A DNA stretch of 37,424 bases from the NCBI GenBank assembly GCA_002239005.1, contig MPNL01000031.1:1-37424 (forward strand), read 5' to 3'. Each line of letters opens with the position of its first letter. Position 1 is the stretch's first letter. Source of the stretch: Truepera sp. bin119 (lineage in GTDB: Bacteria; Deinococcota; Deinococci; Deinococcales; Trueperaceae). The position numbers were made by a program, and so were the translations under genes. The notes under the pieces are model-generated. The model was not told the origin of the DNA, made no database searches, and saw nothing but the letters and a program-made list of their open reading frames with translations. Of the stretch, positions 14,461 to 31,266 are shown in pieces.

Positions 14461-17400
14461 GTGAAAAAACTGCTCATTGCACTTCTAGCCGCTGTGCTGA
14501 CAAGTGGCGCCTTTGCTCAGGACACTGCTTTCCCTGACATCCCAGCGAACCACTGGGCTGCCGACGCTGTTGCCCGGATCACCGATCTCGGCATCATCAT
14601 CGGTTTCCCCGACGGCACCTTCCGCGGTAACGAAGCCTTCACTCGCTATCAGACCGCCCTGGTGATCAGTCGGACGCTCGACGTCATCACCACCAACATC
14701 GAGGCCATGGGTGTCATGTCCGCCGAGGACATTGCCGCTCTAAACGCCGCCTTGGAGCAATTGGCAAGTGACCAGGCTGCGCAGGGTGTGCGCCTCGCCG
14801 CGACGGAGAGTGACGTGGCCTCCCTCGGTGACGATGTGATTGCCGACGGTGCCCGCATCGACGATCTCGAAGCGGCCATCAACGGGGTCATGATGAACAT
14901 GGTCGACCCGATGGTCGTCCAGGAGATGCAAGACCAGATCGCTTCGCTCGGAGTCGCGGCCGCTAATGCTGCTTCCGCTTCCGCCGCCGCCGATTCTGGG
15001 TTGCAAAACCAGATCAATGCGCTCGAGGTTGCGATCGACGCTTCCAACGCCGCGGCTGCCCCCGCCCCCGCTTTTGGGTTGCAAAGCCAGACCAATGCGC
15101 CGGGTGTTGCGATCGCCCCTTCCACCGCCGCCGCTTCCGCCGCCGCTTCCGCCGCCGCCGCCGCCGCTTCCCAGTCTGCCGCTGCCGACGCCGAGTTGCG
15201 TCGGGCGGTTGCTGCGCTCAGCGCTGCTGCCGACGCCGCCGCTTCCCAGTCTGCCGCTGCCGACTCCGGATTGCAAGATCAGATCGATGCCCTCGGTGCT
15301 GCCGCTGCCGCTGCCGCCGCCGCTTCCGAAGCTGCGGACGCTGCGCTTAGCGACGCGATCGACGCTGCCGCTGCTGCTGCCGCTGCTGCCCTCGACGACG
15401 CCGCTGCCGCTTCCGCTGCTGGCGACGCTGCACTCAGCGACGCGATTGATGCGCTCAGCGGTGCTGCCGCTGCTGCTGCTGCCGCTTCCGAAGCTGCGGA
15501 CGCTGCACTCAGCGACGCGATCGACGCTGCTGCTGCCGCTGCCGCTGCTGCCCTCGACGACGCCGCTGCCGCTGCCGCTGCTGGCGACGCCGAGTTGCGC
15601 CGGGCGATTGCTGCGCTCAGTGCCGCTTCTGATGATGCCGACGCTGGGTTGCAAGATCAGATCGATGCCCTCGCTGCTGCCGCTGCCGCTGCTGCTGCCG
15701 CTTCCGAAGCTGCCGACGCTGCGCTTAGCGACGCGATCGACGCTGCCGCTGCTGCTGCCGCTGCTGCCCTCGACGACGCCGCTGCCGCTTCCGCTGCTGG
15801 CGACGCCGAGTTGCGCCGGGCGATTGCTGCGCTCAGTGCCGCTTCTGATGATGCCGACGCTGGGTTGCAAGATCAGATCGATGCCCTCGGTGCTGCCGCT
15901 ACCGCTGCTGCTGCCGCTTCCGATGCTGGCGACGCCGCGCTTAGCGATGCGATTGCTGCCCTCGCTGCTGCTGCCGATGATGCTGCTGCCGCTTCCGAAG
16001 CTGCCGACGCTGGGTTGCAAGGTCAGATAGACGTACTCCGTGTTTCGGTCGAAGCTGCCTCTGCTCGGGCCGACGCTGCCTCTGCTCGGGCCGACGCGGT
16101 CGCCGCCGATGCTGCTGCTGCCCGTGCTGCGCTGCAAGGTCAGATTGATGCCCTCGGTGCTGCTGCTACCGCTGCCGCTGCCGCTTCCGAAGCTGCCGAC
16201 GCTGCACTCGGTGACGCGATTGCTGCCGCTGCCGACGCTGCTGCCGCTGCCGACGCTACTGCTGCTGCCGCTTCCGCTGCTGGCGACGCTGCACTCGGTG
16301 ACGCGATTGCTGCCGCTGCCGACGCTGCTGCTGCTGCCGACGCTGCTGCCGCTGCCGCTTCCGAAGCTGCCGACTCCGGGTTGCAAGGTCAGATCGATGC
16401 CCTCGGTGCTGCTGCTACCGCTGCCGCTGCCGCTTCCGAAGCTGCCGACGCTGCACTCGGTGACGCGATTGCTGCCGCTGCTGCCGCTGCTACCGCTGCC
16501 GACGCTGCTGCCGCTGCCGCTTCCGAAGCTGCCGACGCTGCACTCGGTGACGCGATTGCTGCCGCTGCTGCCGCTGCTACCGCTGCCGACGCTGCTGCCG
16601 CTGCCGCTTCCGAAGCTGCCGACGCTGCACTCAGCGACGCGCTCGATGCCCTCAGTGCTGCTGCTGCTGCTGCTGCTGCCGAATCTGCCGCTGCCGACGC
16701 TGCACTTAGCGACGCGCTCGACGCTGCCGCTGCCGCTTCCGAAGCTGCCGACGCTGCACTCAGCGACGCGCTCGCTGCTGCCGCTGCCGCTTCCGCTACT
16801 GCTGACGCTGCGATTCGCGACGAGGTCGCCGCTGCCGCCGCCGAGTTGCAGGACCAGGTCCATGCGCTTAGCCACGATGTTGAAGATGCTGCTGCCGCTT
16901 CCGAAGCTGCCGACGCCGAGCTCAGCGACGCGCTCGCTGCTGCCGCTGCCGAATCTGCCGCTGCCGACGCTGGTCTCGGTGACTCGATTGCCGCCGCCGC
17001 CGCTGCTGCTGAAGTTGCTCGCGCTAAGCTCAGCGACGCGCTCGCTGCTGCCGCTGCCGAATCTGCCGCTGCTGCTGCCAACAACGCAGCTGGCGTTGCC
17101 GACAACGCGGGCGACATCGCCAACATTCGCGAATTCGTCATCCTGCTCCGCCGTAATCAGGTAGCTATCCGCGACCGCGTAGCCGCCCTCGAGGGTGCCC
17201 ACGCCGAGGCCATCGAAGGGCTTGATAATCGGGTTGGTGCGCTCGAGGCCAACCTGTTCGACCTCTCGGGCAGTATTAAAGTCAGCTACAAGATGGTTCA
17301 CGTCGGCGGGCCCAATAGCCACTTCGACCTCGACCGCGCCTTCGGTAACGGCTTCGGTGCCCCCGGCCTCTCGACCATCTCGACCGGAGCGTTCGACGAT

Positions 17401-19221
17401 GACGATCCGAAGGACGGCAAGATCGATCGCCAGCCGCACCAGGATGCCGACATCCGGGATAATGAAGAGAAGGGTGTCGACGTCACCTTGACAGTCAACC
17501 TCGGCTTCGGTGACTCCCTGGAAGGCTACGCCAAGCTCAGCCTTGCGAAGATCCCGGTCCTCGAGAAGGTTGCTAAGGGTAAAGAGGGTGAAGGCGCCGT
17601 TGCCGGTGACTACAACATCAACACCGGCGAATACTACGCGATCAAGGTCGACAAGCTCTACACCGCTGCCAAGGTTGGTGGCATGACCGACCTAGAGGTC
17701 ACCTTCGGTGAGAAAGCTGGCCTCAGCCACGGCGCCTATGGCAGTTCGTTCACCGACAGCGACGGCATCAACTTCCGCCTTGTCCCCGGCATGGTGGCTC
17801 TCAACCCCGAGATCAGCGGCTTCTTTGTTCCTAAAGCCTTGGACAAAGACAAAAACATTGAGGCTGCAGCCGCCCAGGGCCTCGAGCTCCGCCTTAGCCC
17901 GATGCAGGGTGTAAGTGTCGGCGCGCACCTCAGCCGCTGGGCGTCCGAAGATACCGACGGCAGTGGAGGAGTTGACACGCAAGATACGGTCAACGCGCTC
18001 GTCATAGGTTTCGACGCCGCGTTGAGCCTGCAGCTCTTCGATGTCACGGCCGAGTGGGAGAGAGCTACCCGCTCCGACGATGCCAGCATGGCCGACGACG
18101 CCTTCTACGTCACGCTCAAAGTCGACGACATGATGGGCGGCATGATGATGCCCATCCCGCTGCTCGACAGTCTGAGCGCCTCGTACTTCGATGTCGCGGA
18201 TGACTGGGCGGCCCTGGCGAGGGCGAACTCCAAGAGCTTCCCGTTCAAGGAAGATCAGGCGGGCTTGGTAGCCAACGTGGGTCTTGATCTGGTCCTTGTC
18301 GACCTCGACGCCTACGTCACCAGCTACAGGCTCCACTCGACCCAAGACTCTGCCCTCGCCTTGGGTGCCGATGCCACGGCCGCACTCTTCTCTGGCCTTA
18401 GCCTCGAGGGCTTCTTCCACACCGTTTCGGTGACCCCGGCGGGTGGGACAGCTGTTACGGTTGACGATGTCAAGACCCACATGAACGCGAATGAGGTGGC
18501 GGTCGCCAGCGACTCGCTCGAGCGCGACAAGAACTACAACACCGGCTTCGGCATCACCCTGAAGCACGACGGTATGTCCGCCGATGCGCTGGTGAGTGGT
18601 CTCGACCTCAACCTCGGCTACAAGCAGACGGAGGCCGACTTCAGCAAGCGGACCATCAGTGCCGGTGCTAAGGCTACGCTGCCTATCGACATCATCACCG
18701 TCGCCCCGTACGGATCGATCGAGTGGGTCACGGACACTGACGCCAACCCCGACAACACGACCACCATCAAGGTCGGTGCCGGCGTGACCACCCAACCGAT
18801 CGACACCTTCCTGGCGCCTAGCCTCGAAGGCAATGTCAACTACCGGAACACGGCCCACGCTAACGCTACCGCCGCCACCTACTCCGCTAACGAACTCCAG
18901 TTCGCCGTAGGCCTGTCGCTGAACGAGTTCCTGTTCGACGAGAGCGTCCTCAAGGCCCGTTACGGGTTCCACCGGGGCACCAACGTCCAGCCCAACATGC
19001 GGACCGAGGCCGACGACGATCCGGCCAATGCGACCTACGCCGTCGGTAAAGATAAGGACATGGGCGGTCAGAGCAACGCCACCAACGGTTTCGAGATCAT
19101 TTGGGACTACCACGGTCTCGAGCTCGTCTACGGCTCGTTCACCACCGACCCGAACACCGCTGTCACCGGCGACCACTCCATCGCCAATTACGTCACCATC
19201 TCCTACTCCGTCAACTTCTAA
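14461..19221 (+). CDS. slpA: Giant SlpA-like envelope protein: SLH domain, Ala-rich coiled coil, outer-membrane barrel region
   Basis: 1586 aa from a GTG start with AAGGGG at 14446-14451. Signal peptide at residues 1-19 (MKKLLIALLAAVLTSGAFA). An SLH domain follows at about 21-80 (FPDIPANHWAADAVARI, IIGFPDGTFRGNEAFTRYQ), the part that binds pyruvylated cell-wall polymer. Residues about 90-930 are helical and extremely rich in Ala, with regularly placed Asp, Leu/Ile and Ser (ADAALSDAIDAAA units), forming a predicted long coiled coil. The region from about 935 to the end alternates in beta-strand fashion and ends SYSVNF with a terminal Phe, as outer-membrane barrels do. This plan matches Deinococcus/Thermus SlpA, but the coil is much longer than I would expect. 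It would tie the outer membrane to the peptidoglycan. A long leader precedes it and a strong terminator follows, which suggests high expression. Confidence 0.9.
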   Translation: MKKLLIALLAAVLTSGAFAQDTAFPDIPANHWAADAVARITDLGIIIGFPDGTFRGNEAFTRYQTALVISRTLDVITTNIEAMGVMSAEDIAALNAALEQLASDQAAQGVRLAATESDVASLGDDVIADGARIDDLEAAINGVMMNMVDPMVVQEMQDQIASLGVAAANAASASAAADSGLQNQINALEVAIDASNAAAAPAPAFGLQSQTNAPGVAIAPSTAAASAAASAAAAAASQSAAADAELRRAVAALSAAADAAASQSAAADSGLQDQIDALGAAAAAAAAASEAADAALSDAIDAAAAAAAAALDDAAAASAAGDAALSDAIDALSGAAAAAAAASEAADAALSDAIDAAAAAAAAALDDAAAAAAAGDAELRRAIAALSAASDDADAGLQDQIDALAAAAAAAAAASEAADAALSDAIDAAAAAAAAALDDAAAASAAGDAELRRAIAALSAASDDADAGLQDQIDALGAAATAAAAASDAGDAALSDAIAALAAAADDAAAASEAADAGLQGQIDVLRVSVEAASARADAASARADAVAADAAAARAALQGQIDALGAAATAAAAASEAADAALGDAIAAAADAAAAADATAAAASAAGDAALGDAIAAAADAAAAADAAAAAASEAADSGLQGQIDALGAAATAAAAASEAADAALGDAIAAAAAAATAADAAAAAASEAADAALGDAIAAAAAAATAADAAAAAASEAADAALSDALDALSAAAAAAAAESAAADAALSDALDAAAAASEAADAALSDALAAAAAASATADAAIRDEVAAAAAELQDQVHALSHDVEDAAAASEAADAELSDALAAAAAESAAADAGLGDSIAAAAAAAEVARAKLSDALAAAAAESAAAAANNAAGVADNAGDIANIREFVILLRRNQVAIRDRVAALEGAHAEAIEGLDNRVGALEANLFDLSGSIKVSYKMVHVGGPNSHFDLDRAFGNGFGAPGLSTISTGAFDDDDPKDGKIDRQPHQDADIRDNEEKGVDVTLTVNLGFGDSLEGYAKLSLAKIPVLEKVAKGKEGEGAVAGDYNINTGEYYAIKVDKLYTAAKVGGMTDLEVTFGEKAGLSHGAYGSSFTDSDGINFRLVPGMVALNPEISGFFVPKALDKDKNIEAAAAQGLELRLSPMQGVSVGAHLSRWASEDTDGSGGVDTQDTVNALVIGFDAALSLQLFDVTAEWERATRSDDASMADDAFYVTLKVDDMMGGMMMPIPLLDSLSASYFDVADDWAALARANSKSFPFKEDQAGLVANVGLDLVLVDLDAYVTSYRLHSTQDSALALGADATAALFSGLSLEGFFHTVSVTPAGGTAVTVDDVKTHMNANEVAVASDSLERDKNYNTGFGITLKHDGMSADALVSGLDLNLGYKQTEADFSKRTISAGAKATLPIDIITVAPYGSIEWVTDTDANPDNTTTIKVGAGVTTQPIDTFLAPSLEGNVNYRNTAHANATAATYSANELQFAVGLSLNEFLFDESVLKARYGFHRGTNVQPNMRTEADDDPANATYAVGKDKDMGGQSNATNGFEIIWDYHGLELVYGSFTTDPNTAVTGDHSIANYVTISYSVNF
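15322..15924 (+). repeat. Tandem 216-bp repeats inside slpA
   Basis: The landmark GCTTCCGA recurs at 15322, 15484, 15700 and 15916, giving spacings of 162, 216 and 216 bp. The block starting CGAGTTGCGC recurs at 15591 and 15807, again 216 bp apart. All spacings are multiples of 3, so units of 54 or 72 residues can be gained or lost in frame. The copies are nearly identical at the DNA level. Confidence 0.75.
16432..16614 (+). repeat. Tandem 87-bp repeats inside slpA
   Basis: GCTTCCGAA recurs at 16432, 16519 and 16606, exactly 87 bp (29 residues) apart, and the two full units between are identical or nearly so. They encode an Ala-rich block with SEAADAALGDAI at its head. Confidence 0.8.
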
Positions 19222-29722: not shown

Positions 29723-30484
29723 CTACTCGAACAGAGGTGGGCTCGAGGCCACCATCTCGGCTCCCTCAACTCGGTCGAGTCGGAAGGTGAGCACCTTGCG
29801 TTGCAGGTGGCAGAAGGCGCGGATGTGGGTGCCGTTGAACCGATGGACGTCCACCAGGCGCTCCTTGGTGCCGTAGGTCATCCTGACGCTCGACTTGCGC
29901 CGAGCCGCTTCGCGAAAGATGCCCTCGAAGGGGCTCTCGGCGAAGCTGACCGCAATGACCCCCCTGCGGTCCCCGCGCCGGTAGAGGAGGTGTCCCCGCT
30001 TCTTGGCATACTCGTAGAGGTCCCGGGTGAGCCGCACATCCTCGAGGCAGTAGCGCTCGAGCCTCTCCCAGTCGCCCTGGCGGTAGTATTCGAGGGCGTC
30101 CAATCCGGAGCCGAGCTTACCGACTCCGAGAGTCTCCCGAGCGATGGAGTCGAGGCTGACCCTGTGCCCGAGCGACCTCTGGGCCTCGACCATCAGGTCT
30201 CGGGTGGGGAGTTCGAGCACCCAGTCGCCCAGCACGGCGGCGAGCACGGGCCAGTCGAAACCGATCAGGTTGAACCCCACTACCCGTTCGGCGGCTCTCA
30301 GAGCTGCCGAGAGACGCTCAAACGACTCCGAGGTCGGACTCTCCGGGTCCCGATAGGCTTCGAAGCGGTCACCCTGGTAGTGATAGACCCCGACTACGCT
30401 CACACCTAGGGCGGCCCGGTTGTGGCTGCCCCCCACCTCGTCGAAGGAGTGTTTCGTCTCGAGGTCGACGACCAACTCGTTCAT
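29723..30484 (-). CDS. DEDDy 3'-5' exonuclease fused to a WYL-like domain
   Basis: 253 aa. The N-terminal RNase H-fold exonuclease has VVDLET (Asp7, Glu9), VGFNLIGFDWP (Asp77) and YCLEDV (Tyr145, Asp149), the ExoI, II and III motifs of the DEDDy class. From about 188 the sequence changes: IFREAARRKSSVRMTYG, then VDVHRFNGTHIRAFCHLQRKVLTFRLDRV. This matches the layout of a WYL domain, where the usual YL.AYCHLR...RTFRLDRI ends the fold; the W-Y-L triad itself is replaced here. WYL domains bind nucleic acid or nucleotide ligands in regulators and helicases. The ATG overlaps the phosphatase stop by 4 bases (ATGA), so the genes are translated together. Confidence 0.78.
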   Translation of the reverse strand: MNELVVDLETKHSFDEVGGSHNRAALGVSVVGVYHYQGDRFEAYRDPESPTSESFERLSAALRAAERVVGFNLIGFDWPVLAAVLGDWVLELPTRDLMVEAQRSLGHRVSLDSIARETLGVGKLGSGLDALEYYRQGDWERLERYCLEDVRLTRDLYEYAKKRGHLLYRRGDRRGVIAVSFAESPFEGIFREAARRKSSVRMTYGTKERLVDVHRFNGTHIRAFCHLQRKVLTFRLDRVEGAEMVASSPPLFE

Positions 30485-31266
30485 GCCGCCTGCTCCAGAC
30501 CGATGATGGGGAGCAGCTTGCTGTGCAGGTGACCGTTGCTGGCCACCAGGACACGGTCGCCGAGCCGGTAGGGTTCGCCGCCGCCGTCGGTTACGGTTCC
30601 CCCCGCCTCCTGGATCAGCAGGATGCCGGCAGCTACGTCCCAGGGGTTGAGTTTGAGTTCCCAGAAGGCGTCGAGCCGCCCACAGGCTACGTAGCTCAGG
30701 TCGAGCGCAGCCGCCCCCGGCCTGCGCACGCTGCGCACCTTGGGCAGCACCCGTTCGAAGACCCTTATATTCTCGGAGGCGGACTCGGGGTTGTAGGCGA
30801 ATCCGGTTGCAAGCATCGCCCTGTTTAGCGCGGTCTCGCAGGTCACCCGTATCGGCCTGCCGTTGAGGTGGACCCCGTGGCCGCGCTCGGCGGTGAATAG
30901 CTCGTCACGGCTGGCGTCCATCACGACCCCGACCTCGAGCCGCCCCTCGATCTCGAGACCGATCGAGACGCAGAAGAAGGGGAAGCCGTGGGCGTAATTC
31001 AGGGTGCCGTCGAGCGGGTCCACGATCCAGCGGTGGCTGGCAGCGTGATCCTGCCCCCCCTCCTCGCCGAGAACGGTGTGGTCGGGGTAGGCACTTAGCA
31101 GGATCTTCCTGATCCGCTCCTCACAGATCCGGTCGACCTTGGTGACGAGGTCGGCGTCGGTCGACTTTGTCTCGATTTCGAGGTCGCCGCCTAAGTGGAA
31201 CTTCTGGATGCGGGCCGCTTCCCGGGCGGCCCGGATGGCGGTGTGGAGAAAGGGGGGCGAGGTCAT
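30481..31266 (-). CDS. suhB: Inositol-monophosphatase-family phosphatase (SuhB-like)
   Basis: 261 aa from the ATG at 31266; the frame is open upstream to 31521, but a TATCAT box 6 nt before this ATG and the usual family N-terminus decide it. Metal-site motifs are complete: GEEGG (Glu), WIVDPLDGTLNY (Asp-Asp), and LNPWDVAAGILLIQEAGG. It removes phosphate from inositol-1-phosphate or related sugar phosphates with magnesium; SuhB members also bind RNA polymerase in E. coli. It is overlapped by the exonuclease gene at its end. Confidence 0.9.
   Translation of the reverse strand: MTSPPFLHTAIRAAREAARIQKFHLGGDLEIETKSTDADLVTKVDRICEERIRKILLSAYPDHTVLGEEGGQDHAASHRWIVDPLDGTLNYAHGFPFFCVSIGLEIEGRLEVGVVMDASRDELFTAERGHGVHLNGRPIRVTCETALNRAMLATGFAYNPESASENIRVFERVLPKVRSVRRPGAAALDLSYVACGRLDAFWELKLNPWDVAAGILLIQEAGGTVTDGGGEPYRLGDRVLVASNGHLHSKLLPIIGLEQAA

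Follow-up and report, generated by a model that had tools for sequence, protein, structure and literature searches.

A DEDDy exonuclease-WYL fusion gene in Trueperaceae and its mostly WYL-less relatives in Patescibacteria

The window analysed here is the whole stretch of 37,424 nucleotides from Truepera sp. bin119. On its minus strand, positions 29723-30484 form one ORF of 253 aa with an ATG start, which encodes a DEDDy 3'-5' exonuclease followed by a WYL domain; the ORF, the Pfam matches and the alignment of orthologs agree on this, and the architecture is real. The exonuclease domain comprises residues 1-163 (29996-30484, minus strand), as delimited by Pfam, PHROG profiles, fold and alignment. 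It is followed by a beta-hairpin linker of residues 164-179 (29948-29995, minus strand), which was recognised in the model and in the tails of homologs and has a counterpart in the exonuclease-only relatives. The WYL domain, residues 184-245 (29750-29935, minus strand), consists of a helix and a five-stranded SH3/Sm-like barrel according to Pfam, fold matches and alignments, and the protein ends in the tail ASSPPLFE (residues 246-253; 29726-29749, minus strand), a candidate clamp-binding motif that has no Gln. Directly upstream on the same strand lies a gene of 261 aa (30481-31266) for an inositol monophosphatase (IMPase) of the SuhB type, whose stop codon shares the four bases ATGA (30481-30484, minus strand) with the start codon of the fusion gene. 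Elsewhere in the window (14461-19221) there is a 1586-aa S-layer-homology protein in which a long series of Ala/Ser/Asp-rich near-repeats, AAASEAADAALSDA for example, separates the N-terminal domain from the C-terminal part.

The alignment used throughout contains nine Trueperaceae sequences, eight of them having 62-74% identity to the window protein, and the same nine sequences were used to build the full-length AlphaFold2 model (mean pLDDT 87). A search of the PDB with the single window sequence gave chance matches only.

Regarding the exonuclease domain, Pfam RNase_H_2 (PF13482) matched residues 28-159 with 36.7 bits (cut-off 22). The preliminary description, made from the sequence alone, had placed all the DEDDy catalytic residues in the N-terminal half, and this was borne out: the D-x-E, N..D and Y..D motifs of DEDDy exonucleases are all present in an RNase H-like fold, and D7, E9, N72, D77, Y145 and D149 are invariant across the nine orthologs. 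The DEDDy site is thus complete and seems to be maintained by selection. PHROG profiles of DNA polymerases and polymerase exonuclease subunits matched the first half of the protein (1.8e-14 and 2.4e-13), and this part of the model resembles the exonuclease regions of family-B DNA polymerases, among them KOD (8s84; Z 14.7, rmsd 3.0, 158 aligned). Both the fold and the phage profiles thus make DNA the likelier substrate. No helix-turn-helix (HTH) was found in the window protein by the Pfam scan, the N-terminal half being the exonuclease. Another RNase_H_2 domain of the same genome, within an open frame of 609 aa (G000:C85:30029-30565; L056), scores 95.6 bits, much more than that of the window protein.

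The C-terminal half matched Pfam WYL (PF13280) at residues 191-244 with 23.8 bits (cut-off 21.8). When the last 74 residues were folded alone (pLDDT 89), the top Foldseek matches were PafBC (2.5e-4), CapW and BrxR, with DriD below them, and BrxR was also among the matches of the whole model. VIA-align of the isolated part gave Z 10.5 for BrxR (rmsd 2.9, 72 aligned), Z 10.1 for PafBC (rmsd 1.6, 68 aligned) and Z 9.0 for DriD, the Sm and Hfq barrels being mostly lower. These matches to solved WYL structures support the assignment independently of Pfam. The WYL fold had been proposed earlier for residues 185-253, with the remark that a different C-terminal fold would speak against it; the fold search gave WYL, and what has to be corrected is the extent, because the domain runs from about 184 to about 245 and the last eight or so residues are a separate tail.

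Within the WYL domain R209, C225 and R235 are invariant in all nine Trueperaceae sequences, and position 238 is Arg or Lys. By spacing, and not by a residue-level structure alignment, R235 and R238 correspond to R211 and R214 of PafB, and residue 220 corresponds to Y196 of PafB. Mutation of PafB at R211/R214, R181 or Y196 abolishes its binding of single-stranded DNA (PMC11804915). Residue 220 is Tyr in 7/9 orthologs, while the window protein and one other (L005) have His. The eponymous W-Y-L positions read T-H-I in the window protein, with the Y kept in seven of nine. PafBC, DriD and CapW each have ssDNA-bound structures or ssDNA-dependent activity. We also considered another WYL protein of the same genome as a regulatory partner and rejected it, since the window protein is the only PF13280 match there. 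Two further WYL proteins were seen in the course of the searches. The Stenotrophomonas phage StenM_174 encodes a stand-alone WYL protein of 69 aa (L189:1465-1674), above the Pfam cut-off, whose gene immediately follows that of a primase and lies three genes ahead of one for a DNA helicase. A Patescibacteria genome (G236) has a 251-aa frame (L093:4609-5361) with N-terminal CxxC zinc-ribbon-like motifs and, at the C-terminus, an unambiguous WYL domain (50 bits).

The product of the upstream gene scored 222 bits against Pfam Inositol_P and its closest PDB structures were those of SuhB (8.2e-60). Against the SuhB equivalog model it reached 199 bits, under the cut-off of 332, so we do not claim equivalence to SuhB itself; the score against CysQ was 73.5 bits (cut-off 228.8), and the HisN equivalog cut-off was not reached either. 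A CysQ/pAp enzyme was rejected on these scores. In 9/9 Trueperaceae carriers the fusion gene is immediately preceded, on the same strand, by the IMPase gene; the spacing ranges between -4 and about 56 bases, and the genes downstream vary. The four-base overlap reported in the preliminary description is present, and together with the conserved gene order it makes co-expression of the two genes likely. Most Trueperaceae keep the phosphatase without the exonuclease, and among the most frequent neighbour clusters of the Patescibacteria relatives, at the sampled loci, no IMPase was recognised; the recurrent neighbours there were a membrane protein, judged Lgt-like from its sequence, and other unrelated genes. 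In this sampling the pairing is therefore confined to Trueperaceae; it fits co-transcription but gives no evidence for one pathway.

The full exonuclease-WYL protein was found in 9 of the 39 sampled Trueperaceae genomes, all nine orthologs keeping the WYL domain, and in none of the other sampled Deinococcota (111 genomes in all). In a tenth Trueperaceae genome (G014) only a WYL remnant stands at the same place after the IMPase gene, apparently what was left after the loss of the exonuclease half; it is a WYL-like frame of 74 aa (L010:1495-1719) which ends in PSSDPLFG and has lost one of the two arginines. At the other Trueperaceae IMPase loci that we recovered there was no trace of the fusion. 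The constant location, combined with the scattered occurrence, points to descent in which the gene was lost repeatedly, and the absence of the full-length gene from 30 of 39 genomes indicates that it is dispensable.

Outside the Deinococcota, a scan of named genomes gave relatives in Kerfeldbacteria (40% identity) and Roizmanbacteria (34%), and a search with a family model found exonuclease relatives in 107/380 sampled Patescibacteria genomes. We recovered 93 distinct Patescibacteria copies, of which 89 were exonuclease-only and 4 had a C-terminal WYL-type region located between the exonuclease and the tail; the usual form stands alone and has about 195 residues. Close relatives without WYL had been named beforehand as a possible objection; there are none among the nine Trueperaceae orthologs, whereas most of the distant Patescibacteria homologs have no WYL domain. 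One of the four fusions (L061) passes the Pfam WYL cut-off with 25.3 bits, whereas another (L018, the Kerfeldbacteria one) has no Pfam WYL score and was assigned by position and pattern only, and the paired arginines are missing from some of them. At this locus (L018:4532-5293) a PDDEXK_1 (RecB/Cas4-like) nuclease gene stands upstream of the fusion gene, on the same strand.

In a tree of the exonuclease domains the nine Trueperaceae proteins form a firm group, away from the four Patescibacteria fusions. The tree needs two architecture changes, with modest support between groups and several long branches; it favours two changes over a single fusion event, although one origin with losses is possible from these sequences. 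A viral origin or spread was rejected: the patterns used found no relative in viral contigs, and the outside matches were one weak phage WYL and one weak plasmid exonuclease. We also rejected the idea that the Patescibacteria enzymes stand in for DnaQ-type proofreading, as they showed no association with RNase_T (52/107 vs 148/273, Fisher p 0.36).

The C-terminal tail deserves separate attention. In the window protein the last eight or so residues show little order both in the full-length model and in the part folded alone, and yet are conserved, S247, L251 and F252 being invariant in the nine orthologs. The consensus for binding to the sliding clamp is Q-aliphatic-x-[LM]-[FL], together with a six-residue form; the Gln strengthens binding without being required, and the Leu-Phe pair is able to bind by itself (PMC11139829). 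The Trueperaceae tails read S-[SN]-x-[PH]-L-F, so that the window tail, SSPPLFE, keeps the Leu-Phe of a Gln-x-x-[LM]-[FL] motif and has no Gln. Among the exonuclease-only Patescibacteria homologs, 49/89 end in Q..[LMI][FLI], compared with 0/512 other ORFs of the same loci, this strict pattern being the published consensus loosened at position 2 and with Ile allowed. With Asn-initial and six-residue variants, written after seeing the tails, the figures were 77/89 and 1/512. The 89 homologs are related and do not count as independent events; however, the residues preceding the motif vary far more than the motif. A clamp-type motif also occurs in three of the four fused Patescibacteria homologs. 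The DnaE proteins of six Patescibacteria genomes carry motifs of the same kind (QTSLF, QNSLF, QHSLF, QESLF, QVNLF and QNNLF), in agreement with the published consensus, and those of Trueperaceae carry QFGLF, QFSLF, QMSLF and QLSLF. By their sequences, the Patescibacteria exonuclease-only proteins (L063-L169) are a candidate undescribed clamp-associated family, whereas clamp binding by the Gln-less window protein would probably be weaker or may have been lost.

Taking these results together, we propose that the window protein acts in replication or repair as a 3'-5' exonuclease on single-stranded DNA, the WYL domain being its ssDNA-binding module, a reading to which we give an even chance. The intact DEDDy domain, with its proofreading-domain fold, would trim DNA in the 3'-5' direction. 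The WYL barrel, through the PafB-like paired arginines, would grip ssDNA, and the bound strand might either have its 3' end fed into the active site or switch the activity on as ssDNA accumulates. The tail may hold the enzyme on the beta sliding clamp, more plausibly in the wider family than in the window protein. A broader scheme, which we put forward tentatively and with considerable doubt, is that widespread, undescribed stand-alone DEDDy exonucleases dock on the beta sliding clamp by their tails, and that an ssDNA-sensing WYL domain inserted before the tail makes a clamp-tethered exonuclease controlled by exposed ssDNA.

Three other explanations were weighed. Gating of the exonuclease by a ligand, as the preliminary description suggested, is possible, and WYL domains are treated as ligand sensors of transcription factors, predicted to sense nucleotides, in the 2014 survey (PMC4012209); the basic groove residues and the Cys kept in the WYL domain would also suit a sensor. 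The particular version in which the domain responds to a small nucleotide or to an oligonucleotide and acts as an allosteric switch of the nuclease, possibly in stress or phage defence, seems unlikely to us, given that the known ligand of the closest WYL structures is ssDNA, that the commonest form of the family works without a WYL domain, and that inspection of the surrounding ORF list by eye revealed no recognisable defence genes. An enzyme which trims RNA bound by the Sm/Hfq-like barrel and is coupled to SuhB, which in E. coli serves as a Nus factor, we consider rather improbable. The barrel does resemble Hfq and Sm folds and the SuhB-type neighbour is conserved in Trueperaceae, but the WYL matches mostly outrank Hfq, the nearest folds and profiles of the exonuclease are proofreading domains of DNA polymerases, the relatives bear clamp-like tails, and the precedents for WYL function, PafBC and TePif1, both work via ssDNA. 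This reading can also point to the WYL-fused exonuclease being named an exoRNase in the 2014 survey (PMC4012209).

The joint function in pAp-type turnover suggested at the outset fares worst. Here the exonuclease would yield nucleotides and the phosphatase would strip their 3'- or 5'-phosphates, and the four-base overlap and the linkage unbroken in nine carriers would be in keeping with such a salvage pair. We regard it as very improbable, because the phosphatase resembles SuhB/IMPase much more than CysQ, is retained without the exonuclease in most Trueperaceae, and has no counterpart among the recurrent Patescibacteria neighbours.

Proofreading and repair exonucleases usually sit inside or beside polymerases. 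A small independent exonuclease in roughly one in four of the sampled Patescibacteria genomes, bearing a clamp-like tail of its own, would add a new factor to DNA maintenance in these very small genomes. The form with WYL would reveal directly whether such a barrel can control a nuclease, and not a promoter or a helicase.

Regarding known systems, MrfB/YprB of Bacillus subtilis is an RNase_H_2-type DEDD exonuclease in DNA repair, with the helicase MrfA as partner and another accessory domain. The Patescibacteria exonuclease-only PF13482 proteins, among them the Roizmanbacteria one with 34% identity, resemble the window protein in the exonuclease domain, the DEDDy motifs and the hairpin, but they differ from it in having a Q..LF-type tail and neither a WYL domain nor a phosphatase partner. 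Full-text searches of open-access papers, judged by title and abstract, gave no description of this exonuclease family and nothing on a Patescibacteria exonuclease and the sliding clamp. However, the pairing of WYL with a 3'-5' exonuclease, taken as uncharacterised in the preliminary description, is not wholly new: the survey of Makarova et al. (2014) lists WYL combined with a '3'->5' exoRNase', fusions that may or may not belong to the family of the window protein (PMC4012209). PafBC, DriD, BrxR and CapW have the WYL barrel fold in common with the window protein, and PafB also the paired arginines, whereas the window protein has no DNA-binding HTH or WCX domain and its WYL domain is fused to a nuclease. 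The Pif1 helicases TePif1 and DdPif1, an experimentally studied enzyme fusion, join a DNA-processing enzyme to a C-terminal WYL barrel as the window protein does, the enzyme being a helicase and not an exonuclease (PMC9964779).
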